A stretch of 64,000 nucleotides of DNA, from positions 1,302,001 through 1,366,000 of the forward strand of contig NZ_CP070968.1 of the NCBI RefSeq assembly GCF_017086445.1, written 5' to 3'. The translations under genes were made by a program, and so were the position numbers. The notes beneath the pieces are model-generated. The model saw only the letters and a list, made by a program, of their open reading frames with translations, searched no databases and was not told where the DNA came from. Source of the stretch: Brevundimonas fontaquae. Lineage in GTDB: Bacteria > Pseudomonadota > Alphaproteobacteria > Caulobacterales > Caulobacteraceae. Below, piece by piece: positions 15,847-52,031 of this stretch; the first letter of the stretch is position 1, and every line of letters starts with the position of its first letter.

Positions 15847-16740
15847 TTGACCACCTCGACCGAGCCGCTTGCGTTTCAGGACCTGATCCTGACGCTCCAC
15901 CGCTATTGGGGCGAGCAGGGCTGCGCCATTCTACAGCCCTATGACATCGAGGTCGGGGCCGGTACGCTGCATCCCGCCACCGTCCTGCGCGCGCTAGGCT
16001 CCAAGCCGTGGAAGGCCGCCTATGTCCAGCCCAGCCGCCGCCCCGGCGACGGTCGCTATGGCGAGAACCCCAACCGCCTCCAACACTATTACCAATACCA
16101 GGTCATCCTAAAGCCGAACCCGGACAATCTTCAGGCGCTGTATCTGGGGTCGCTGGCGGCCATCGGCATCGATCCGAAACTGCACGACATTCGCTTCGTG
16201 GAGGACGACTGGGAAAACCCCACCGTGGGCGCCTGGGGTCTGGGCTGGGAGGTCTGGTGCGATGGGATGGAGGTCACGCAGTTCACCTATTTCCAGGGCG
16301 TCGGCGGCATCGAGGTCGATGTGGTGTCGGGCGAGCTGACCTACGGGCTGGAGCGTCTGGCCATGTACGTCCAGGGCGTGGACAACGTCTATGATCTGAA
16401 GTTTACCAAGGAGGGCCTGACCTATGGCGAGGTCTTCCTGGAGAACGAGCGCCAGCAGTCGGAAGCCAACTTCCACGGCTATGACGTGGACGGTCTGAAG
16501 CGCCGGTTCGAGGACATGGTGAGCGAGGTTCAGCGCCTGCTGGATATGCGTGGGCCGCAGGATCAGCCGCTGGTCCTGCCCGCCTACGATCAGGTTCTGA
16601 AGGCCAGCCACCTGTTCAACCTGATGGACGCCCGCGGCGCCATCGCCGTCGCCGAACGCCAGAGCTACATCGGCCGCATCCGCGAACTCTGCAAAGCCTG
16701 CGCCCTCGCCTACGTCGAACAAGAGCGGAAAACCGCCTGA
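15847..16740 (+). CDS. glyQ: Glycine--tRNA ligase alpha subunit
   Basis: 297-residue catalytic alpha subunit of the bacterial alpha2beta2 glycyl-tRNA synthetase, which forms glycyl-adenylate. The family N-terminus [17 protein letters not shown], the PYD-EVGAGT segment and the YVQPSRRP segment are all present. The start is TTG at 15847, the only reasonable start before the conserved FQDLI region. Its TGA shares one base with the glyS ATG (TGATG). Confidence 0.96.
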
Positions 16741-40814: not shown

Positions 40815-41203
40815 GCGCCAGACGGCTGGGCGGTCGCGGCGGACTTCGCGTCCGTCGAGGAAAGTCCGGGCTCCACGGTGAAAAGGCGGCGGATAACTTC
40901 CGCCCGGGGTGACCCGAGGGATAGCGCCACAGAAAGCAAACCTCCGGCCTTGCGAGGCCGGTAAGGGTGAAAGGGTGGGGTAAGAGCCCACCGCGGACCT
41001 GGCAACAGGGACGGCATGGCAAGCCCCGCCTGGAGCAAGACCAAATAGGGACATCGCGCGGGCTCGCTCGCGGGGCTCACCGCCTCAGATGTCCGGGTAG
41101 GTCGCGAGAACCGATCAGCAATGGTCGGTCCAGAGGAATGATCGTCGCCGATCCGGGCCTCGGCCTCGGATCGGAACAAAACCCGGCTTACAGGCCGTCT
41201 GGC
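40815..41203 (+). ncRNA. rnpB: RNase P RNA, bacterial type A
   Basis: About 389 nt. The two ends form helix P1 (GCCAGACGGC at 40815 with GCCGTCTGGC at 41194). The universal core is present: GAGGAAAGTCCGGGCTCC near 40856, ACAGAAAGC, GGTAAGGGTGAAAGGGTGGGGTAAGAGCCCACC in order (CR II/III region), and the closing GGCTTACAGGCC. It cuts 5' leaders from tRNA precursors. ATTTTTC follows and may end transcription. Confidence 0.95.
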
Positions 41204-41233
41204 ATTTTTCTCGGCCTACCGCGCTTCGCGCTG

Positions 41234-41326
41234 CTTGAGGCCGGCTTTTTCTTTGGGCCTATCGGCCTTTGGCCTACTTGAGGCCGGCTTTTTCTTTGGG
41301 CCTATCGGCCTTTGGCCTACTTGAGG
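41234..41326. repeat. Tandem 43-bp repeat downstream of rnpB
   Basis: Two exact copies begin with CTTGAGGCCGGCTTTTTC at 41234 and 41277 (each continues with TTTGGGCCTATCGGCCTTTGG), and a third partial copy starts at 41320. Each unit contains a GGCC-rich hairpin and a T run, so it may be a multiplied terminator or processing signal of rnpB. It starts the 487-nt gene-free stretch before mraZ. Confidence 0.85.
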
Positions 41327-41493
41327 CCCGTGGGGTTGGGCGTTGGCGCCCTCCCTAAGCGCGTCGCCGAATCCGAGTTCGGATTATCCCCGCATTTCAG
41401 CGTTCTGGTGGCGCTCCCATGCGTTGGCGGGCGTTAACCTATTGTCTGGCAATGGAAGGTTAGAACGCCGCACAGCCTGTGAATACTTTGTTT

Positions 41494-41508
41494 GTTCCGT
41501 GTATGTTC
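41494..41508. promoter_or_regulatory. LexA-type SOS box upstream of mraZ
   Basis: GTTC-CGTGTAT-GTTC is an exact match to the alphaproteobacterial LexA operator GTTC-N7-GTTC. It lies 183 nt before the mraZ start and six bases before a CtrA-type box. Function is inferred from the motif. Confidence 0.7.
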
Positions 41509-41514
41509 CAGCTG

Positions 41515-41529
41515 TTAAAGCGTGCTTAA
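41515..41529. promoter_or_regulatory. CtrA-type box upstream of mraZ
   Basis: TTAA-AGCGTGC-TTAA matches the full CtrA binding consensus TTAA-N7-TTAA of Caulobacterales. A lone TTAA half-site follows at 41552-41555. CtrA is the master cell-cycle regulator that represses or activates division genes; its action here is inferred. Confidence 0.75.
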
Positions 41530-41569
41530 GTCGCCACACGTCAAAACATGGTTAAATCTTGGCTTCGAT

Positions 41570-41603
41570 CCCATTGAGGCCCATTTCATCCCATGCTATC
41601 CCA
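41570..41603 (-). promoter_or_regulatory. Probable MraZ operator: four TGGG repeats at 10-bp spacing
   Basis: CCCA occurs at 41570, 41580, 41590 and 41600, so the minus strand carries four TGGG boxes with an exact 10-bp period. MraZ is known to bind tandem TGGGN boxes separated by five bases near its own gene. The array ends 87 nt before the mraZ start and suggests autoregulation of the dcw cluster. Confidence 0.75.
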
Positions 41604-41690
41604 GCATCATGATTTGGGGCTGAGAGGCGGGCGCGGCGGGCGTTCGTCAGGGCATCTAGGGACGGGCCGAAGGGCTCGATTGGACAGGGC

Positions 41691-42167
41691 GTGTTTCTCT
41701 CGACCTATGAGAAGCAGCTGGACGGCAAGCGCCGTCTCCTCATCCCCAACGATTTCCGCACGACCGAAAACGGCGCCGCTGGCGGCGTGTTCATCTTCCC
41801 TTCGATCGAGGCCGACTGTCTGGAAGCGGGCGGCGACCGCCTGTTCGCCGTCTATGCCGAAATGATCGAAGCCCTGCCGTTCGGCTCCGAGGAGCGTTCG
41901 GCGCTGGAGTGGCAGGTGATGGGCGAGCAGGTGCGTCTGGCCTACGATTCCGGCGGTCGGATCACCTTGCCTGAGGCGCTGTGCGCCGAGGCGGGTTTGG
42001 GCGACACCGTCGTCATCGTCGGCCTGAACGACCGCTTCCAGATCTGGTCGCGAGAAAAATGGGCGGCCCGCCGCGCCGAACAGCGCGCCTTGGCCAAGGC
42101 CGGCATGGCCCAGATCGGCGCCCTGAAACTGGCGGCCCAGATGAAGCTGGCTGGAGGCGGATCGTGA
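41691..42167 (+). CDS. mraZ: Division/cell wall cluster transcriptional regulator MraZ
   Basis: 158 residues, two SpoVT/AbrB-like half-domains: the first with [20 protein letters not shown] (start to about residue 22) and the second with [18 protein letters not shown]. MraZ binds TGGG boxes in its own promoter as a ring-shaped oligomer and controls the dcw genes. The start is GTG at 41691. Its TGA overlaps the rsmH GTG by four bases. A four-box array lies just upstream. Confidence 0.93.
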
Positions 42168-43132
42168 CTGACGCTCCCCACGCCCCCGTCCTGCTGGCCG
42201 AGGTGATCGAGGCCCTGGCGCCCGCGCCCGGCGACGTCGTGATCGACGCCACCTTCGGCGCCGGCGGCTACACTCGCGCCATCCTGAAAACGGGCGCCCA
42301 GGTCGTCGCCCTGGATCGCGACCCGACGGTCCAGCTGCACGCCGACGCCGTCGCCAGCGACTTCCCTGGCCAGTTCCAGCTGATCCGCACCCCCTTCTCG
42401 GGTCTGGCTCAGGCGTTCGCCGACAGCGGCAAGGCGAAGCTGGACGGCGCCGTCTTCGACATTGGCGTCTCGTCGATGCAGCTGGATCAGGCCGAGCGCG
42501 GCTTCTCCTTCATGCGCGACGGTCCGCTGGACATGCGCATGTCCGATGAAGGCGCGACCGCCGCCGACATCGTCAATACCTGGGACCACGGTCCCCTGGC
42601 CCACATTTTCAAACTGTATGGCGAAGAGCGCCAGTCGGGCCGCGTCGCCACCGCCATCCTGCGTCGCCGCGTCGAACAGTCGTTCACCCGCACCCTGGAT
42701 CTGGCCGAGGTGGTCGAAAAGGCCCTGGGCGGCCGTCGCGGCGCGCCCATCCATCCGGCGACGCGGGTGTTCCAGGCCCTGCGCATCGCGGTCAACGACG
42801 AACTGGGCGAGCTGGAGCGCGGTCTGGAGGCGGCCGAGGCGACGCTCGCCCCCGGTGGACGCCTCGCCGTCGTCACCTTCCATTCGCTGGAAGACCGCAT
42901 CGTCAAGGCCTTCCTGACCGAGCGCACGGGCAACAGCCCCGCAGGTTCGCGTCATGCGCCGATGGCCGTCGATCCGCGCAAGCCCAGCTTCACGCTTCAG
43001 TTCAAGGGCGCGCGCGAGGCGGGCGACGAAGAGCGTTCCACCAACCCCCGCGCCCGCTCGGCCAAGCTGCGCGCCGCCGTCCGCACCGACGCCCCCGCCT
43101 GGGGCAAGATGGCGGGGAGGGCTGCGGCATGA
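42164..43132 (+). CDS. rsmH: 16S rRNA (cytosine1402-N4)-methyltransferase
   Basis: 322-residue RsmH (MraW), which methylates C1402 of 16S rRNA with SAM to tune the P site. The opening [13 protein letters not shown], the SAM loop [10 protein letters not shown] and the later [10 protein letters not shown] motif are intact. The start is GTG at 42164 with GGAGG upstream and overlaps mraZ by GTGA; a longer frame from 41981 is a shadow of mraZ. It overlaps ftsL by ATGA. Confidence 0.95.
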
Positions 43133-43578
43133 CCACGGCGCCCTTCTTCACCTATTCCCGCACCGCCCTTCAGCGCCTGTTCGACTGGAAGGTGCGGGGC
43201 GTGCGCTGGGTCGAGATCATCGGCGTGGCCCTGGTCGCGATCATGATCGTGTCGGTCTATGCCGCCAAGGCCGCCGCAGCGCGTGAGAGCAGCCGCATCG
43301 CCCAGATCGAACAGGACATCCGTGAGAACGGACAGCGCGTCCGCCTGCTGCGCGCCGAGGTCGCCCGGCTGGAGCAGCCCGCCCGTCTGGAAAGCCTGTC
43401 TCGCCAGATCGGCATGGCGCCCGTCGCGGTCGCCCGTCAGGCCAAGGAAGGTCAGCTGACCGCCCTTAAACCCGTCCCCGCTCAACCCGCCGCATCTGCT
43501 CCCGCAGCCGCGCCGGCGCCCACCGCCGTCGCCGATGACGCACCCGTCCCAACGCCTTCGCCGGAGCCGGCGCAATGA
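43129..43578 (+). CDS. ftsL: Cell division protein FtsL-like
   Basis: A 149-residue bitopic membrane protein: a cytoplasmic N-terminus, one helix at about residues 27-46 ([15 protein letters not shown]), then a periplasmic coiled coil to about residue 95, and a Pro/Ala-rich tail. Position between rsmH and ftsI and this layout mark it as FtsL, which forms the FtsQBL complex that activates septal synthesis. Sequence identity in this family is low, so the name rests mainly on context. It overlaps both neighbours by four bases. Confidence 0.8.
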
Positions 43579-45359
43579 GCGTTCAGGATCATCGCTATCA
43601 CCGCCCCGCGCCGGGCGCCGATTTCCAGGAACGGCTGCAAGGCCGCCTGTCGCCCTTCTGGCGCTGGCTGACGGAACTGGTCTGGCGGCTGGAGCACGGC
43701 TTCGAGCGCGCCCGCGCCGACGCTCGCCCGGAAGAGGACACGCGCGTCCGCATCTTCCTGATCCTGATCGTCTTTTCCTGCGTCTTCGGCGGCCTGGCCA
43801 TCGGCGCATCGTATAAGGCCCTGTTCGCCCCGGCCAACGGCCTGGGACGCGGCGTCAATCCGAACGCCCTGGTGCGCGGCGACCTGACGGACCGCAATGG
43901 CGAGCTTCTGGCCACCAACATCGTCCACTACGGCCTCTACATCGACCCGGCCGAGATCTGGGATCGCGATCTGGCCTATCGCCAGATCCGCCGCGCCCTG
44001 CCGCGCATCTCGGCTGAGCGTCTGAAAAGGGTGCTGGGCGGCGACCGTCGTCTGATCGCCCTGACTGGCCTGACGCCTCAGGAAAAGGCCGCCGTCCACG
44101 ACCTGGCGCTGGGCGGCGTCACCTTCGAGCCCGAGGACCGTCGCGCCTATCCGCTGGGAACCTCGGCCGTCCACCTGATCGGCGACGCCGACACGGGCGG
44201 GCAGGGCGTCTCGGGCGCCGAGCTGGCCTTCAACGACGAGATCCGCGCGGCGGGTCAGCGCGGCGAGGCCTTCCCCCTGTCCATCGACCTGCGCGTGCAG
44301 GGCGTGCTGGAAAACGAACTCGCCGCCGCCGCGATCAAGAACCAAGCCAAGGGCGCCGTCGGCATCGTCACCGACGTCCAGACCGGCGAGGTGCTGGGCA
44401 TGGCGTCCTGGCCGACCTTCAACTCGGCCGATCGCGGCGCGGCGCCCGACGGCGCCACCCTGAACCGCGCCGTCTCGGGCCACTACGAAATGGGCTCGGT
44501 GTTCAAGACCTTCACCGTCGCCGCCGGCCTCGACACCGGTCGGGCCGACATGAACACCCTGTTCGACGCCTCCCAGGCCTTCCAGATCGGCGATCGCAAG
44601 ATCAAGGACTTTCACGCCCAGAACCGGGTGATGACCCTGGAAGAGGTCTATCTGCACTCCTCCAACATCGGCACGTCGCAACTGGCGGTGCAGATGGGCC
44701 CCAACACCATGCGCGACTATTTCCGCCGCCTGGGCCTGCTGGACGCCGCAAAGATTGAGCTGAAGGAATCGGCCAAGCCCGTCGTGCCGCGTCGCTGGGA
44801 CAACTCGACCCTGGCGTCGCTGTCCTTCGGCTACGGCATCATGATCACCCCGGCCCAGATGGTTCAGGCCATGGGCGCCCTGACCAACGGCGGTCGGATG
44901 ATCCCGCTGTCGCTGCGCAAGGGCGGCGCCCGCAACGTCCAGCCGCAACAGGTCGTCACCGAAGAGACCTCGCGCGCCATTCTCGACCTGCTGCGTCGCA
45001 ACGTCGTCAAGGGTTCGGGCGGCTTCGCCGATGCGCCGGGCCTGCGAGTCGGCGGCAAGACGGGCTCGGCCAACAAACTGGTCGGGGGTCGCTACGACCC
45101 CAGCCACGCCCTGGGCTCCTTCGCGGCGGTCTTCCCCGTCGACGGCCCGCTGAACGGCAAGCGCTACGCCATCCTGATCGTGATGGACGAGCCGGGGACC
45201 TATCCCAAGACCGGCGCCTATGTCGCTGCGCCCGCCGTGCACAATATCGCCGACCGCATCGCCGGCTTCCTGGGCGTCGAACGCCGCGACGACCGCTGGC
45301 GCACGGCCTCGGGCGAGAAGATCCCGCAGTATCAGGACGTGGCGGGGGACGGGCTTTGA
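43575..45359 (+). CDS. ftsI: Septal peptidoglycan transpeptidase FtsI (PBP3 class)
   Basis: 594-residue class B penicillin-binding protein that cross-links septal peptidoglycan with FtsW. A short cytoplasmic part and one membrane helix (about residues 58-80) precede the pedestal domain and the transpeptidase domain. Active-site motifs: Ser308-x-x-Lys311 (GSVFKT), Ser362-Ser363-Asn364 and Lys495-Thr-Gly (GGKTGSA). All are present. It overlaps ftsL (ATGA) and murE (TTGA). Confidence 0.96.
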   Translation: MSVQDHRYHRPAPGADFQERLQGRLSPFWRWLTELVWRLEHGFERARADARPEEDTRVRIFLILIVFSCVFGGLAIGASYKALFAPANGLGRGVNPNALVRGDLTDRNGELLATNIVHYGLYIDPAEIWDRDLAYRQIRRALPRISAERLKRVLGGDRRLIALTGLTPQEKAAVHDLALGGVTFEPEDRRAYPLGTSAVHLIGDADTGGQGVSGAELAFNDEIRAAGQRGEAFPLSIDLRVQGVLENELAAAAIKNQAKGAVGIVTDVQTGEVLGMASWPTFNSADRGAAPDGATLNRAVSGHYEMGSVFKTFTVAAGLDTGRADMNTLFDASQAFQIGDRKIKDFHAQNRVMTLEEVYLHSSNIGTSQLAVQMGPNTMRDYFRRLGLLDAAKIELKESAKPVVPRRWDNSTLASLSFGYGIMITPAQMVQAMGALTNGGRMIPLSLRKGGARNVQPQQVVTEETSRAILDLLRRNVVKGSGGFADAPGLRVGGKTGSANKLVGGRYDPSHALGSFAAVFPVDGPLNGKRYAILIVMDEPGTYPKTGAYVAAPAVHNIADRIAGFLGVERRDDRWRTASGEKIPQYQDVAGDGL

Positions 45360-46816
45360 GCGCGCTTCACCTGTCCGACCTGCTGCGCCGCGACGTGTCC
45401 TCGGACCCCGTCATCACCGGCGTCACCGCCGACAGCCGCAAGGTCTCGCCCGGCGCCCTGTTCGTCGCCCTGCCGGGCACGGCCGCCGACGGCCGCGCCT
45501 TCATCCCCCAGGCGCTGGCGCAAGGGGCCGCTGCGGTTCTGGCGCCGACCGACACGCCGGATGGTGCGGCGCCCGTTCTGGTCACCTCGGGCGACGTGCG
45601 CCGGGCCTACGCCATCGCCGCGCGCGGCTTCTACGGCGCCCAACCCGAGACCTGCGTCGCCGTCACCGGCACCAACGGCAAGACTTCGGTCGCCACCTTC
45701 TGCCGCCAGATCTGGGCCGGGATCGGCCACAAGTCCGCCAGCATGGGCACGCTAGGCGTCATCGGCCAGAAGGGCGTCAAGACCTACGCCCTGACCGGCC
45801 CCGGCCTGACCAGCCCCGACGCCGCCGAGGCCGCGCGCCTGATGGCCGAACTGGCCGCCAAGGACGTGACCCACGTCGCGCTGGAGGCCTCGTCCCACGG
45901 CATCGATCAGCGCCGCCTGGATGGAGTCGCCTTGAAGGCCGCCGCCTTCACCAACCTGACCCAGGACCACCTCGATTATCACGGCACCATGGCGGACTAC
46001 CGCGCCGCCAAGATGCGCCTGTTCGAAACCCTGCTGCCGCGCGGCCGCACCGCCGTGCTGAACGCCGATTCCGACGCCTATTCGGTCTTCGCCTCGGCCT
46101 CGATCATGGCGGGCCTGGGCGTCATGGGCGTGGGCGAGCGCGGTCGCGACCTGACCCTGATCGGCCGTCGCGCGACGCCTGAGGGCCAGCGTCTGACCAT
46201 CGACGTGCGCGGCGACATCCGCGAAATCCTGCTGCCGCTGGCCGGCGCGTTTCAGGCGTCCAACGCCCTGGTAGCGGCCGGTCTGTGCATCGCCGCCGGC
46301 GATCCTGCCGACGCCGTCATCGGCGCGCTGGAAGGCCTGACCGGCGCGCAAGGCCGCCTCCAACGCATCGACGGCGGCATAGAAGGCCGGGGCGAGGTCT
46401 ATGTCGACTACGCCCACACGCCCGACGGGCTTGAGACGGTGCTGAACGCGCTGCGTCCGCACGCGACCGGCCGACTGATCGTCGTCTTCGGCGCCGGCGG
46501 CGATCGCGATCGTGGCAAGCGTCCCCTGATGGGCGAGATCGCCGGGCGTCTGGCCGACATCGCCATCGTCACCGACGACAATCCGCGTTCCGAAGACGCC
46601 GCCGCCATCCGCGCCCAGGTCCGCGCCGGCTGCCCGGACGGGATCGAGATCGGCGACCGCCGCGCCGCCATCGAGGCCGCCGTCGAAATGATGCGTGACG
46701 GGGATGTGGTGGTCATCGCCGGAAAAGGGCATGAACAGGGTCAGATCGTCGCGGGCGTGACCCACCCCTTCGACGACGCCACTGTCGCGTCCGAGGCCCT
46801 GTCTCTCTATGCCTGA
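45356..46816 (+). CDS. murE: UDP-MurNAc-L-Ala-D-Glu--2,6-diaminopimelate ligase
   Basis: 486-residue Mur ligase adding the third peptide residue. The ATP loop is TGTNGKTS (about residue 104), and the DNPRSED motif near residue 408 indicates meso-diaminopimelate rather than lysine as substrate, as expected for a Gram-negative. The start is TTG at 45356, overlapping the ftsI stop. It overlaps murF by eight bases. Confidence 0.95.
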   Translation: MSALHLSDLLRRDVSSDPVITGVTADSRKVSPGALFVALPGTAADGRAFIPQALAQGAAAVLAPTDTPDGAAPVLVTSGDVRRAYAIAARGFYGAQPETCVAVTGTNGKTSVATFCRQIWAGIGHKSASMGTLGVIGQKGVKTYALTGPGLTSPDAAEAARLMAELAAKDVTHVALEASSHGIDQRRLDGVALKAAAFTNLTQDHLDYHGTMADYRAAKMRLFETLLPRGRTAVLNADSDAYSVFASASIMAGLGVMGVGERGRDLTLIGRRATPEGQRLTIDVRGDIREILLPLAGAFQASNALVAAGLCIAAGDPADAVIGALEGLTGAQGRLQRIDGGIEGRGEVYVDYAHTPDGLETVLNALRPHATGRLIVVFGAGGDRDRGKRPLMGEIAGRLADIAIVTDDNPRSEDAAAIRAQVRAGCPDGIEIGDRRAAIEAAVEMMRDGDVVVIAGKGHEQGQIVAGVTHPFDDATVASEALSLYA

Positions 46817-48227
46817 ACACTCCGCCCGCCCGCTCTGGTCGGCCGCCGAAGTCGCCGCCGCCACGGGGGGCGTGCTGCAGGGCGACGATCGCCCGATCAC
46901 GGGCCTGACCTACAACAGCCGCGAGATCGTCCCCGGCGATCTGTTTCTGGCGCTCAAGGGCGAACGCGACGGGCATCAGTTCGCCAGCGGCGCCTTCGCA
47001 TCGGGCGCTGCGGCCGCCCTAGTCGAACACCCGGTTGAAGGCGGCCCGTGCGTCGTCGTGCCCGACACCTTGCGCGGCCTCGAAGCCCTGGGCGTCGCCG
47101 CCCGCGAGCGCGCGCCCCATGTGAAGCGCGGCGCCGTCACCGGCAGCGTCGGCAAGACCAGCGTCACCCAGGCGATCAAGGCGGGCCTCGACCTCGCCGG
47201 TCCCGCCCACGGCTCGATCAAGAGCTACAACAACCACATTGGCGTGCCCCTGACGCTGGCCCGGATGCCGGTCGAGACCCAGCGCGCCGTGTTCGAGATC
47301 GGCATGAATGCGCCGGGCGAGATCGCGCCGCTGTCGCGCTTCGTCGCCCCCCACGCCGCCTGCGTCACCACGGTCGGTCCGGTCCATATCGAGGCCTTCG
47401 CAGACGGCGAGGCCGGGGTCGCGCGTGAAAAGGCGACCATCTTCCAGGGTCTGGTCCCGGGCGGTGCGGCGGTGGCGAACGGCGACGTCGCCTTCTCGGC
47501 TATCCTGTGCGATGCGGCCAAGGCGGTCGGCGCGCGTTTGCTGACGTTCGGATCCGACGCCGGCCATGACGCTCGCCTGCTGGACTTCCGGCCGGACGCA
47601 GAGGGCGCGGCGGTGGCCGCCGAACTGTTCGGGCGACGCATCGACTATCGCCTGGCCCAGTCCGGCGCCCATTGGGGCCTGAATAGCCTGTGCGTCCTCT
47701 TGATGCTCGACGCCCTGGACGTGTCGCTGGAGACGGGCCTGGAGGCCCTCGCGGGGGTCCAGCCTCTGGCCGGACGCGGCCAGACCCGCACGGTCACGAC
47801 GCCGGACGGCGCCTTCACCCTGATTGACGAGAGCTACAACGCCAATCCCCTGTCCATGGCCGCCGGGTTCAAGACTTTGGGCGCGCGCTCGACCTCGGGC
47901 CGCCGCGTGGTGGTGCTGACCGACATGCTGGAACTGGGCGAGCAGAGCCGCGACCTGCATGAAGGTCTCGCCGGCCCCATCGACGCCGCCGGCCTCGACC
48001 TCGTCCACGCCGCCGGGCTCGAGATGCGCTGGCTGTACGACGCGCTGCCGGTCTCGCGACGCGGCGTCTGGCGCGCGACGGCGGCGGAACTGGCGGCCGA
48101 GGCGGCCCTGCTGGTCGCGCCCGGCGACATCGTCATGGTCAAGGGCTCGAACGGCTCCAAGGCCTCGCTGGTGGCAAAGGCGCTGGCCGATCTTCAAGGC
48201 CGCGACACGCCGCCCGCGACGCGATAG
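46809..48227 (+). CDS. murF: UDP-MurNAc-tripeptide--D-alanyl-D-alanine ligase
   Basis: 472-residue Mur ligase that adds the D-Ala-D-Ala dipeptide, the last cytoplasmic peptide step. The ATP loop TGSVGKTS lies at about residue 112, KSYNNHIGVPLT follows, and the C-terminal domain has DESYNANPLSM. It starts inside the end of murE and ends nine bases before mraY. Confidence 0.95.
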   Translation: MPEHSARPLWSAAEVAAATGGVLQGDDRPITGLTYNSREIVPGDLFLALKGERDGHQFASGAFASGAAAALVEHPVEGGPCVVVPDTLRGLEALGVAARERAPHVKRGAVTGSVGKTSVTQAIKAGLDLAGPAHGSIKSYNNHIGVPLTLARMPVETQRAVFEIGMNAPGEIAPLSRFVAPHAACVTTVGPVHIEAFADGEAGVAREKATIFQGLVPGGAAVANGDVAFSAILCDAAKAVGARLLTFGSDAGHDARLLDFRPDAEGAAVAAELFGRRIDYRLAQSGAHWGLNSLCVLLMLDALDVSLETGLEALAGVQPLAGRGQTRTVTTPDGAFTLIDESYNANPLSMAAGFKTLGARSTSGRRVVVLTDMLELGEQSRDLHEGLAGPIDAAGLDLVHAAGLEMRWLYDALPVSRRGVWRATAAELAAEAALLVAPGDIVMVKGSNGSKASLVAKALADLQGRDTPPATR

Positions 48228-48236
48228 AGGACCAAA

Positions 48237-49346
48237 ATGTTCTATCTGCTCTATCTCTACTACGCCGACGTGGCGCACCAGTATCCGCTGCTGAACCTGG
48301 TTCAGTACCAGACGGTGCGCGTGGCCCTCGCCATGGCCACCGCCATGATCGTCGCCGTCGCCATGGGCAGCCGCTTCATCAACTGGATCCGCGCCAAACA
48401 GGGCCGGGGCCAGCCGATCCGCGACGACGGCCCGGTGTCCCACCTGTCCAAGGTCGGCACCCCTACCATGGGCGGTCTGATGATCCTGGCCGGCATCGGC
48501 GTGGCGGTGCTGCTCTGGGGCGACCTGACCAACCCCTACATCTGGATCGTCAGCTTCGTGACGGCGGCATTCGGCGTGCTGGGCTTCATCGACGACTACG
48601 CCAAGGTGACCAAACAGACTTCGGCCGGCCTGACCTCGAAACAGAAGCTCCTGGCCCAGACCGTCGTCGCCGTCGTCGCCGGCGTCCTGACCGTGCTGTG
48701 GATGACCGTCTCGCCGACCTCGCCGGGGCTCGAGACGTCGATCGCCTTCCCCTTCTTTAAGGCCGTGCTGCTGAACATCGGCTGGTTCTATGTGGCGTTC
48801 GCGGCGTTCACCATCGTCGGCTTCTCCAATGCGGTGAACCTGACCGACGGTCTGGACGGGCTGGCGACCGTGCCGGTGATGATGGCGGCGGGCGCGTTCG
48901 GCGTGATCAGCTACCTCGCCGGCAACTTCGTCTTCGCCCAGTATCTTCAGGTCCACCACGTGCCTGGCGCGGGCGAACTGGCCATCTTCTGCGCGGCCAT
49001 GATCGGCGGCGGCGCGGGCTTTCTCTGGTACAATGCCCCGCCGGCCAAGATCTTCATGGGCGACACCGGTTCGCTGGCTCTGGGCGGCGCGCTGGGCGCC
49101 ATCGCCGTCACCACCAAGCACGAACTGGTCCTGGGCATCGTCGGCGGCCTGTTCGTCATGGAGGCCGCCTCGGTCATGATCCAGGTCGGCTATTACAAGC
49201 TGACGAAGAAGCGCATCTTCCTGATGGCGCCGGTCCACCACCATTTCGAGAAGATGGGCTGGCCGGAATCCACCGTCGTCATCCGCTTCTGGATCATCGC
49301 CGGCGCCCTGGCCCTGCTGGGCCTGTCGACGCTGAAGCTGCGCTGA
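48237..49346 (+). CDS. mraY: Phospho-N-acetylmuramoyl-pentapeptide-transferase
   Basis: 369-residue polytopic membrane enzyme that moves phospho-MurNAc-pentapeptide to undecaprenyl phosphate, making lipid I. The magnesium/substrate motifs [16 protein letters not shown] and the loop APVHHHFE are all intact, with about ten transmembrane helices between. It lies four bases before murD. Confidence 0.97.
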
Positions 49347-49350
49347 TCCG

Positions 49351-50859
49351 ATGATCCCCGTTCCCGGCTTTGAAGGCAGGCGGGTCGCGGTCTTCGGCCT
49401 GGGACGGTCGGGGATCACGGCCGCACGCGCCCTTCAGGCCGGGGGCGCGATACCGGTCCTGTGGGACGACGGCGAGGCCGGCCGGGCGCAGGCGAAAGGC
49501 GAGGGTTTCACGGTCGAGGACCTGGCTGCCGCCGACTGGTCCGACTTCGCCGCCCTGGTTCTGTCGCCCGGCGCGCCGCTGACCCATCCCAGGCCGCACT
49601 GGACCGTGGACCTGGCCCGCGCGGCCGGCGTGCCCGTCCTCGGCGACATCGAACTGTTCGCCCGCGCCCTGGCCTCGTATTCGTCGTCATCCTCCGGCTT
49701 GACCGGGGGACCGCGCGTCGTCGCCATCACCGGCACGAACGGCAAGTCCACCACCACCGCCCTGATCGGCTGGGTGCTGAGGTCGTCGGGCCTGACGGTC
49801 CACGTCGGCGGCAATATCGGCGTCGGCGTCCTGGCCTTGCCCGAACCGACGCCGGGCGCCGTCTATGTGATCGAGGTCTCCAGCTACCAGCTGGACCTGA
49901 CCACGACCTTCGCCCCCGATGTCGCCATCCTGACCAACATCAGCCCGGACCACCTGGACCGCCACGGCGGCATGGACGGCTATGTCGCGGCCAAGGCGCG
50001 TATCTTCGCCAATCAGGGACGGGATAATTTGGCTCTGGTGGGTGTGGACGACAGCTGGGGGCAGGGGATCGCATCTGAACGCTCCCAACGCGTCATCGCT
50101 ATTTCCTCCTCCGCTCATCCCCGCGAAGGCGGGGACCCAGGGCTTTCGTCAGGAGACGATGCCGAGGATCAACGTCTTGCCCCATCCCTACCTGTGGAGC
50201 GCCCACAGAACTGGGTCCCCGCCTTTGCGGGGATGAGCGGCATCAAGGCTGTCCCCGGCGCGATCTGGAGCGAAGGTCGCAAACTCGTAAACCTCACCGC
50301 CGCCCGCTCGCTTCCCGGCCGTCACAACGCCCAGAACGCCGCCTTCGCCTATGCGACCGCCCGCGCGCTCGGTCTGGATCACGACGCCGCCGTCGCCGGC
50401 CTGCTGTCCTTCCCCGGCCTGGCGCACCGCATGGAGGCGGTCGGCCGCCTCGGCTCCGTGCGCTTCATCAACGATTCCAAGGCCACCAACGCCGACGCCG
50501 CCCGTCAGGCCCTGGCCTCCTATCCGTCCGTCTTCTGGATCGCCGGCGGCGTGCCCAAGGCCGGGGGCATCGCGGACCTCGCCGACCTCTTCCCCCGCAT
50601 CGCCAAAGCCTATCTGATCGGCGACGCGGCAGCGGCCTTCGCCGAAACACTTGCTGATACGCCCCACGTCATCGCCCGCACCCTCGACGCCGCCGTGGCC
50701 GCCGCCGCCGTCGATGCAGCCTCCGCCGGCGGCGACCAGATCGTCCTTCTGTCCCCCGCCTGCGCCAGCTTCGATCAGTTCAAGGACTTCGAGGCGCGCG
50801 GCGAGGCCTTCCGCGCCGCCGTTCTGGCTCTCGGCACCGTCCCGGAAACCGCGTCATGA
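49351..50859 (+). CDS. murD: UDP-MurNAc-L-alanine--D-glutamate ligase, with repeat-derived insertions
   Basis: 502-residue Mur ligase, about 60 longer than E. coli MurD (438). The ATP loop TGTNGKSTT is at about residues 128-136, ILTNISPDHLDRHG follows, and the C-terminal domain has FINDSKATNADA. Two segments look foreign. Residues about 112-123 (SSSSSGLTGGPR) are read from DNA resembling one arm of the repeat after ppdK. Residues about 254-297 (HPREGGDPG to WVPAFAGM) are read from a complete 130-bp palindromic repeat. Both are in frame with no stop, so the enzyme should still be made; as an essential step it is presumably active. Confidence 0.94.
   Translation: MIPVPGFEGRRVAVFGLGRSGITAARALQAGGAIPVLWDDGEAGRAQAKGEGFTVEDLAAADWSDFAALVLSPGAPLTHPRPHWTVDLARAAGVPVLGDIELFARALASYSSSSSGLTGGPRVVAITGTNGKSTTTALIGWVLRSSGLTVHVGGNIGVGVLALPEPTPGAVYVIEVSSYQLDLTTTFAPDVAILTNISPDHLDRHGGMDGYVAAKARIFANQGRDNLALVGVDDSWGQGIASERSQRVIAISSSAHPREGGDPGLSSGDDAEDQRLAPSLPVERPQNWVPAFAGMSGIKAVPGAIWSEGRKLVNLTAARSLPGRHNAQNAAFAYATARALGLDHDAAVAGLLSFPGLAHRMEAVGRLGSVRFINDSKATNADAARQALASYPSVFWIAGGVPKAGGIADLADLFPRIAKAYLIGDAAAAFAETLADTPHVIARTLDAAVAAAAVDAASAGGDQIVLLSPACASFDQFKDFEARGEAFRAAVLALGTVPETAS
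49686..49717 (+). repeat. Repeat-arm fragment inside murD
   Basis: GTCATCCTCCGGCTTGACC and the next bases match the left arm of the inverted element at 21932 onward at about 27 of 32 positions. It encodes part of a Ser/Gly-rich stretch just before the murD ATP loop. Confidence 0.6.
50111..50240 (+). repeat. 130-bp palindromic repeat inside murD
   Basis: The left arm 50111-50140 (begins CCGCTCATCCCCGCGAAGG) and right arm 50211-50240 are inverted copies identical at 29 of 30 positions. Each contains its own short stem (CCCCGC and GCGGGG). A 70-base unique core lies between. The whole is translated within murD. Confidence 0.92.
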
Positions 50860-52031
50860 GCGCTCCCTACACCCCCGCCTTTTCCCGCAACGACCAAAGC
50901 CATGTGGCCCAGTGGTTCTGGACCGTGGATCGCGGCCTGCTGGGCGCGGCGCTCGCGCTGATGGCCCTGGGCGTGGCGCTCAGCTTCGCCTCCAGCCCCG
51001 CCGCCATCCTGGCCGATGAATCGATCACCGACCCCTTCCACTATTCCTGGCGGATGATGGTCTTCTCGGGCGTGGGGCTCAGCATCATGCTGACGACCTC
51101 GCTGATGTCGCCGCGCGGCGTGCGGCGGATCGCGGTCCTGGCCCTGTTCGGCGCCATCGTCGTGATGATGGCCCTGCCGTTCATCGGCGATACGGTGAAG
51201 GGGGCCGCCCGCTGGGTGAACTTCGGCCCCTTCAGCCTGCAACCGTCCGAGTTCGCCAAGCCCGGCCTGATCGTCTTCGCCGCCTGGATGTTCGCCGAGG
51301 CGCAAAAAGGGCAGGGGGTGCCCGGCGTCACCATCGCCTTCGGCTTCTATGCCCTGACCGTCTCGCTGCTGCTGATCCAGCCCGACATCGGCCAGACGCT
51401 TCTGATCACCACCACCTTCATGGCCGTCTTCTTCATGGCGGGCGTGCCGTTCAAATGGATGGCGGTTCTGGCCAGCCTGGGCATGGCGGGGCTGGTGTCG
51501 CTGTATTTCGTCTTCGGCCACATGCGCGACCGTCTCAGCCGCTTCTTCTCGCCCGAAACCACCGACACCCATCAGATCGATAGCGCGTCCGAGGCCATTC
51601 GCGCCGGCGGCCTGCTGGGACGCGGCATTGGCGAAGGCGTGATGAAGCGCCGCGTGCCCGACCTCCACACCGACTTCATCTATTCGGTCGGCGCCGAGGA
51701 GTTCGGCCTGATCCTCAGCCTGATCATGATCAGCCTCTACGCCTTCATCGTCATTCGCGGCATGCGCCGGGCGATGAAGCTGACCGATCCGTTCGAGCAG
51801 ACGGCGGCGGCGGGCCTATTCATGCTGATCGGGCTTCAGGCCTGCATCAACGTCGCGGTGAACCTGAACCTGATCCCGACCAAGGGCATGACCCTGCCCT
51901 TCATCAGCTACGGCGGCTCCTCCATGCTGGCCATGGGCCTGACCATGGGCTTTGCGCTCGCCCTGACGCGACGCAGACCCGGCGCCTACGAACCCGGCGC
52001 CAGCCTGACCATGGGCCGGCGGTTGCTGTAG
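50856..52031 (+). CDS. ftsW: Septal peptidoglycan glycosyltransferase FtsW
   Basis: 391-residue SEDS-family polymerase with about ten membrane helices. Conserved loops GAARWVNFGPFSLQPSEF-AKP and PFISYGGSS are present; the former carries the LQPSE region near the central cavity. It polymerises lipid II at the septum with FtsI. It overlaps murD by ATGA. A 282-nt gap with short repeats follows before murG. Confidence 0.96.
   Translation: MSAPYTPAFSRNDQSHVAQWFWTVDRGLLGAALALMALGVALSFASSPAAILADESITDPFHYSWRMMVFSGVGLSIMLTTSLMSPRGVRRIAVLALFGAIVVMMALPFIGDTVKGAARWVNFGPFSLQPSEFAKPGLIVFAAWMFAEAQKGQGVPGVTIAFGFYALTVSLLLIQPDIGQTLLITTTFMAVFFMAGVPFKWMAVLASLGMAGLVSLYFVFGHMRDRLSRFFSPETTDTHQIDSASEAIRAGGLLGRGIGEGVMKRRVPDLHTDFIYSVGAEEFGLILSLIMISLYAFIVIRGMRRAMKLTDPFEQTAAAGLFMLIGLQACINVAVNLNLIPTKGMTLPFISYGGSSMLAMGLTMGFALALTRRRPGAYEPGASLTMGRRLL

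Follow-up and report, generated by a model that had tools for sequence, protein, structure and literature searches.

Predicted LexA-, CtrA- and MraZ-type sites upstream of mraZ and the dcw cluster in Brevundimonas fontaquae and other Alphaproteobacteria

Bacteria must avoid dividing over broken DNA, and the damage brakes known from Caulobacter are small inhibitor proteins. In Brevundimonas fontaquae, LexA-, CtrA- and MraZ-type motifs lie together before mraZ, the opening gene of the dcw cluster, and raise the question whether DNA damage could reach septal wall synthesis through transcription of the cluster itself. Our best reading, which we regard as probable, is a composite dcw control region with LexA and CtrA input, autoregulated by MraZ, whose joint sites plausibly tie dcw expression to DNA damage, the cell cycle and MraZ feedback. 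We infer binding by LexA, CtrA and MraZ, as well as the promoter and its start, from the DNA sequence and its comparison across genomes.

The mraZ upstream region and its MraZ boxes

The analysed window of 64,000 nucleotides corresponds to positions 1302001-1366000 of a single-contig genome of 3300602 bases. Within it, mraZ occupies 41691-42167 on the plus strand (Pfam PF02381, E 2.3e-16), starts with GTG at 41691 and encodes a 158-residue product with a MraZ domain. It is followed on the same strand, at 42164-52031, by mraW, an ORF at the place of ftsL, ftsI, murE, murF, mraY, murD and ftsW, as assigned from ORFs and Pfam matches; the ORF at the ftsL place had no Pfam match. The gene upstream of mraZ, running in the same direction, is rnpB for the RNase P RNA (40818-41206, plus strand; Rfam RF00010, 303.5 bits). 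Behind rnpB stand three tandem 43-nt units with terminator-like stems (41205-41333), whose core word occurred one to three times in eight relatives by a crude count. An earlier note on this DNA had placed stacked LexA, CtrA and MraZ motifs within 110 bp upstream of mraZ. Direct reading and pattern search found every one of these motifs where it had been reported; the 110 bp, however, is the span of the sites, which stand 88-197 bp before the mraZ GTG.

Four nested groups of mraZ upstream regions were compared. The Brevundimonas set combined named relatives with genomes of the same genus, and included a few from other genera; its named relatives, the best 80 of 229 loci, were mostly Brevundimonas strains with MraZ 96-99% identical. 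A family sample, with mraZ in 143 of 149 genomes, provided 23 of the 24 own-genus genomes (G083 had no locus) and 67 of 119 other-genus matches. The order sample provided 19 other-family loci among 30 returned, from 42 matching other-family genomes, the 11 Caulobacteraceae loci being omitted as already sampled. For the class, 90 of 244 matching genomes were taken, mostly one per family, and six of them (L224, L257, L285, L286, L287, L301) were dropped for want of a usable mraZ start, leaving 84, for most of which 400 or 500 bp of upstream DNA was covered (194 bp in one).

The predicted MraZ boxes are four CCCA words, TGGG on the minus strand, beginning at 41570, 41580, 41590 and 41600 and thus at exact 10-bp spacing (41570-41603). 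Three or four exact CCCA words at this spacing within 300 bp of mraZ were present in 86/88 sequences of the Brevundimonas set, 43/67 of other Caulobacteraceae, 17/19 of other Caulobacterales and 71/84 of other orders, indicating a class-wide element. When two or more words sufficed, the counts rose to 88/88, 63/67, 19/19 and 79/84, compared with a mean of at most 0.8 in base-shuffled DNA. Conservation of the CCCA arrays therefore supports well the MraZ sites proposed in the earlier note.

The same stretch carries a predicted core promoter on the plus strand (41574-41602), consisting of TTGAGG (41574-41579), a 17-bp spacer and TATCCC (41597-41602), with a TG at 41594-41595. We infer that this main promoter lies inside the MraZ boxes and that its start falls near 41609. 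The pattern TTG-N20-TATCCC was found in 83/88 sequences of the Brevundimonas set, 5/67 of other Caulobacteraceae, 13/19 of other Caulobacterales and 38/84 of other orders, and its reversed control in none of any group; the count in other Caulobacteraceae reached 57/67 once TA[TA][CA]CC was allowed. A generic sigma-70 scan detected no promoter here, presumably since its rule calls for a final T, which TATCCC lacks. Since the predicted TTGAGG-N17-TATCCC promoter lies inside the four boxes, MraZ, encoded by the first gene behind it, would be expected to cover the promoter and so to limit transcription of its own operon.

The LexA-type box and the CtrA-type elements across relatives

The predicted LexA operator TGTTCCGTGTATGTTC (41493-41508, plus strand) is a GTTC-N7-GTTC direct repeat, proposed on its motif, conservation and matrix score. 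The repeat itself, GTTCCGTGTATGTTC at 41494-41508, has zero mismatches, and the box TTGTTCCGTGTATGTTC agrees with the extended Caulobacter LexA consensus (T/A)TGTTC-N6-TGTTC, as quoted in PMC13384398. GTTC-N7-GTTC is frequent, with two occurrences in the window (1.61 expected) and 121 in the genome compared with 66 for the reversed pattern, so the motif alone says little. The stricter TGTTC-N6-TGTTC occurred 12 times in the genome, the mraZ site among them, versus twice for its reversed control. Six of the 11 other strict sites precede ORFs with these Pfam domains: LexA, UvrA, SSB, a Y-family polymerase (IMS), a radical-SAM ORF that we read as SplB-like, and a divergent pair with PHP (DnaE-like) and MsrA domains. 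Three others had no clear partner gene. The last two (G000:C1:417506, L171, and G000:C1:981550, L173) stand 50 and 91 bp before a coaBC-like ORF (Pfam Flavoprotein, DFP) and a pheT-like ORF (tRNA_bind), respectively, which are unusual as SOS genes. A matrix built from the six sites of the first group gave the mraZ box 20.3 bits, the top score of the window, the source sites themselves scoring 13.8-24.1 bits when each was left out in turn. The runner-up in the window, at 16.0 bits, is at position 16717 on the minus strand. The host has a LexA of its own, seen as a PF01726 match at genome positions 2015092-2015280 with a LexA-type site just upstream.

A perfect GTTC-N7-GTTC within 350 bp of mraZ was present in 82/88 distinct sequences of the Brevundimonas set (shuffle mean 1.04), 54/67 of other Caulobacteraceae genera (1.03), 9/19 of other Caulobacterales families (0.18) and 36/83 of other orders (0.61); it was absent from 6/88, 13/67 and 10/19 in the first three groups. 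Among the other orders, 30 of the 36 boxes were inverted, 28 of 68 families had at least one box-bearing sequence, and the count was 40/84 when all upstream DNA covered, mostly 400-500 bp, was considered. In other classes, no GTTC-N7-GTTC was found within 400 bp of mraZ in 29 loci, one of which had CTGT-N8-ACAG, and the E. coli K-12 mraZ upstream region yielded no LexA-type site. In three stacks of aligned boxes, where the half-sites are invariant by selection of the sequences and the spacer bases are unselected, the spacer carried 1.19, 1.01 and 0.83 bits per column, compared with 0.45, 0.19 and 0.16 in the flanks. Boxes of the Brevundimonas set gave the consensus TGTTCTGTGTATGTTC, and the inverted ones from other orders gave TGTTCTTgtTATGTTC. 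Genome G077, which we take to be Caulobacter vibrioides (over 177 residues a PopZ query was 100% identical to its protein, compared with 98% for the next genome), has GTTCTGTGTATGTTC 185 bp upstream of mraZ together with three CCCA boxes. In locus L210 the LexA box stands on the mraZ side of the CCCA array. Being conserved, the LexA-type and MraZ-type sites exceed what chance would give.

The box was also compared with the presence of LexA, by a PF01726 search in 160 genomes that included the 84 of other orders. Fifteen of the 84 had no match over the cut-off, one of them showing a weak match below it. None of these 15 had a box at mraZ versus 40 of the 69 LexA-bearing genomes (Fisher p 1.8e-5, with relatedness ignored), an association confounded by ancestry, since most genomes without LexA are small and such genomes come from particular lineages. 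The remaining 29 LexA-bearing genomes lacked a perfect box at mraZ, and 11 of the 15 LexA-less genomes still had three or four exact CCCA boxes. Before lexA itself, GTTC-N7-GTTC occurred in 52 of 60 genomes, a sample chosen to include many without the mraZ box, and represents the expected self-control of lexA. The mraZ box was also present in 26 of these 52 and missing from all eight genomes without the lexA box (p 0.008, again ignoring relatedness). The lexA boxes have a conserved spacer of their own, in many genomes TAGTTTA or TAGTTTG, unlike the spacer at mraZ. Taken together, conservation and the tracking of LexA presence support well the claim of the earlier note that a LexA site stands here.

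The CtrA-type elements fared unevenly. The TTAA-N7-TTAA pair TTAAAGCGTGCTTAA (41515-41529, plus strand) is rare, occurring once in the window versus 0.02 expected and nine times in the genome versus zero for the reversed control, and the earlier note had named it beside a TTAA half-site. A perfect pair was found in a single sequence of the Brevundimonas set, that of this genome (1/88), and was missing even in strains with 99% identical MraZ (L001, L031-L033); we therefore rejected it as the key CtrA site and as a conserved feature. The supposed half-site, in contrast, has a conserved core in the Brevundimonas set. The TTAA at 41552 lies within CATGGTTAA (41548-41556), which reads TTAACCATG on the minus strand, a predicted CtrA site of the form TTAACC(AT), presumably a CtrA variant. 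Among the 82 array-bearing sequences of that set, 74 have its GGTTAA core starting 20-21 bp ahead of the CCCA array. Hence, of the boxes that the earlier note had stacked, the LexA and MraZ boxes and the supposed CtrA half-site recur across relatives, and the perfect TTAA pair does not.

Related elements were seen at shifted positions. Some genomes of other Caulobacteraceae have TTAACCAT elsewhere, and in genus g14 a perfect TTAA-N7-TTAA (TTAATCCCATGTTAA) stands within the MraZ array in 4/11 genomes (L164, L165, L166, L167), which would make the CtrA-type sites overlap those of MraZ. Another TTAACC element, CGTTAACC at 41432-41439, is located upstream of the LexA box and is part of the majority consensus that 30 aligned upstream regions gave. 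A CtrA-type motif has been reported before mraZ in S. meliloti (PMC3616915, PMC4414408, as far as these texts were available); the present element shares its place before the gene, and differs in that its position and orientation are lineage-specific. With a conserved core here, shifted sites elsewhere and the S. meliloti reports, the CtrA input looks real but mobile.

How LexA may act, and alternative readings of the box

The predicted LexA operator lies at about -116 to -101 from the predicted start, and the CtrA-type TTAACCATG at about -61 to -53, a place where an activator could act. In undamaged cells, bound LexA would restrain additional transcription of mraZ and of the genes downstream, and damage, by destroying LexA, would release them. 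The earlier note had held that a transcription start far from the boxes would count against its reading: the predicted promoter does lie inside the MraZ boxes, yet it is about 100 bp from the LexA box, which is far for classical occlusion.

The most likely mode, which we put forward tentatively, is that LexA represses a second, distal promoter with the -10-like element AATACT (41482-41487), whose transcripts would start inside the box. Within 22 bp upstream of the box, AATACT was found in 51/80 and TATACT in 14/80 sequences of the Brevundimonas set, and in 4/54 and 2/54, respectively, of other Caulobacteraceae; no -35 element was found for this promoter. AATACT belongs to a conserved 20-bp block just upstream of the box (41469-41488, plus strand), for which 82 sequences of the Brevundimonas set gave the consensus TCCACAGCCTGTgAATACTT, with 0.3-1.3 bits per column (mean about 0.9) and a near-palindromic CACAG-C-CTGTG. 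The block also contains a DnaA-like TGTGAATAC (41478). Matches to TTWTNCACA with at most one mismatch occurred near the box in 26/54 sequences of other Caulobacteraceae versus 4.6 expected and in 39/80 of the Brevundimonas set versus 2.2, and the DnaA-like element may add replication initiation as a further input. In L115 and other Caulobacteraceae loci, a DnaA-like TGTGGAT(A/T)A abuts the 3' side of the LexA box.

The next likeliest mode, to which we give somewhat less weight, is fine-tuning of the main promoter from a distance, LexA acting from about -100 on the same helix face in a fixed helical phase. It would work by looping, or by contact with RNA polymerase, CtrA or the MraZ ring. Rhodobacter has a LexA that also activates, which favors such action. 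Distances from the box to CCCAT(G/A)NTAN cluster near 76, 87, 96, 107 and 117 bp, and for inverted boxes near 140, 150, 160, 170 and 180 bp. A 10.5-bp period gave p values of 2.2e-5 for 38 genus-distinct values outside Brevundimonas, 0.016 for 16 distinct values of the Brevundimonas set, and for inverted boxes 6e-4 with 21 values and 0.003-0.013 with 17 distinct values, although the independent changes are few and shared ancestry inflates these figures. Moreover, the CCCA array itself repeats every 10 bp, so that slippage of the anchor yields part of the ladder, and distances off the ladder exist (for example 80-82, 90, 101 and 218 bp).

Both modes take mraZ and the dcw operon to be what the box serves. 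That LexA binds the box and serves instead rnpB, or a small RNA or peptide encoded between rnpB and mraZ, we consider unlikely. The reading draws on the presence of rnpB upstream in most scanned loci, 18/20, 12/20 and 14/20 in three scans (L253, L255 and L266 were in two of them, and the L245 match was partial, distant and on the opposite strand), and on the frequent inversion of the box in other orders, where in several loci it stands less than about 60 bp from an rnpB-like 3' end. Against it, many box-bearing loci had no rnpB match (L213, L225, L228, L188, L198, L202, L204, L210, L253, L266, L293, L100 and the short L260), and because of these loci the box seems to belong with mraZ. We rejected it as an rnpB operator on these grounds, with the qualification that in such loci rnpB may lie beyond the DNA scanned. 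An operator of a divergent gene was likewise rejected, since no consistent divergent ORF accompanied the box across loci, the exceptions being a 276-codon minus-strand ORF over the box in L266 and a divergent ORF about 360 bp away in L228. As for a small SOS peptide between box and mraZ, 25 of 26 loci (all but L065, which has no perfect box) shared no ORF beyond near-identical strains, with the sole exception of frames running through the conserved MraZ boxes, and this candidate was dropped as well.

Somewhat less probable still is a reading without LexA, in which the direct repeat is bound by some other regulator that recognizes repeats with a period of about 11 bp, such as an OmpR-type response regulator. 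At the Rhodobacter mraZ promoter, ChIP-seq signals have been described for NtrX and also for CenR, the latter doubted by the authors themselves (PMC7240162, PMC9275681, in the parts available), and in other Caulobacteraceae the repeat runs on as GTTCTGTGTATGTTCTGTGGAT, exceeding the needs of a LexA half-site pair. However, neither the CenR motif (TGA-N8-TGA) nor the proposed NtrX motif (GCA-N9-TGC) falls on the box, a single CenR-type match being found at 41610; the half-sites at mraZ are those that stand before lexA in 52 of the 60 genomes; and the box follows LexA across the other orders. No GANTC was found in 41400-41700. Finally, co-occurrence of the motifs by chance in an AT-richer intergenic stretch, suggested by the commonness of GTTC-N7-GTTC and by the TTAA pair private to this genome, is very improbable given conservation far above shuffles in the four nested groups, which refutes it for the predicted LexA and MraZ sites; the TTAA-N7-TTAA at 41515 may be a chance match.

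A proposed damage input to division and its relation to known systems

The mraZ box is thus a predicted and unusually wide addition to the alphaproteobacterial SOS operator set, placed at the head of the division cluster, and suggests an influence of DNA damage on how wall building is controlled during division. If true, transcription would link the SOS response directly to the septal machinery. A bolder version, which we think improbable and offer as speculation, is an old, class-wide transcriptional division checkpoint without a dedicated inhibitor, in which loss of LexA would cause a pulse of MraZ that closes the dcw promoter. MraZ, by closing the promoter embedded in its own boxes, would then slow septal wall synthesis until LexA returns. 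Such a checkpoint would predate inhibitors like SidA and be more widespread than they are.

Judged by repeat and period, the CCCA array is the same kind of element as that before E. coli K-12 mraZ, which has three TGGG words with a 10-bp period; here it stands on the opposite strand and on the predicted core promoter. The B. cenocepacia mraZ is preceded by four repeats of 7, separated by 3-nt spacers, which, like the E. coli boxes, lie downstream of the -10 element and which also cover the start (PMC7761207, seen in part). The array described here, in contrast, overlaps the predicted -35 to -10 region.

The LexA-type box resembles the SOS operators of Caulobacter crescentus in its direct repeat and extended consensus (PMC12700426, PMC13384398, in the parts available) and differs from them in its place, which is before the dcw operon and not before a repair gene, and about 100 bp ahead of the predicted start. 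The main texts on the Caulobacter SOS response that were available to us (PMC12700426, PMC13384398, PMC6120978, PMC1839093) do not name mraZ, which may stand in a table. A wider look at literature on LexA, mraZ, CtrA and Caulobacter, confined to main texts and thus no proof of absence, found no LexA site at an alphaproteobacterial mraZ. For the human-gut SOS meta-regulon, LexA control of a MraZ homologue was proposed and in vitro binding with B. subtilis LexA was reported (PMC3998124, in the part available). That case, as described there, belongs to a Gram-positive context and to B. subtilis LexA, whereas the box before mraZ in B. fontaquae has the alphaproteobacterial motif and is widespread in the class. 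Since that study independently reported a LexA site before a mraZ homologue, the SOS response and mraZ may have become connected, or have stayed so, more than once.
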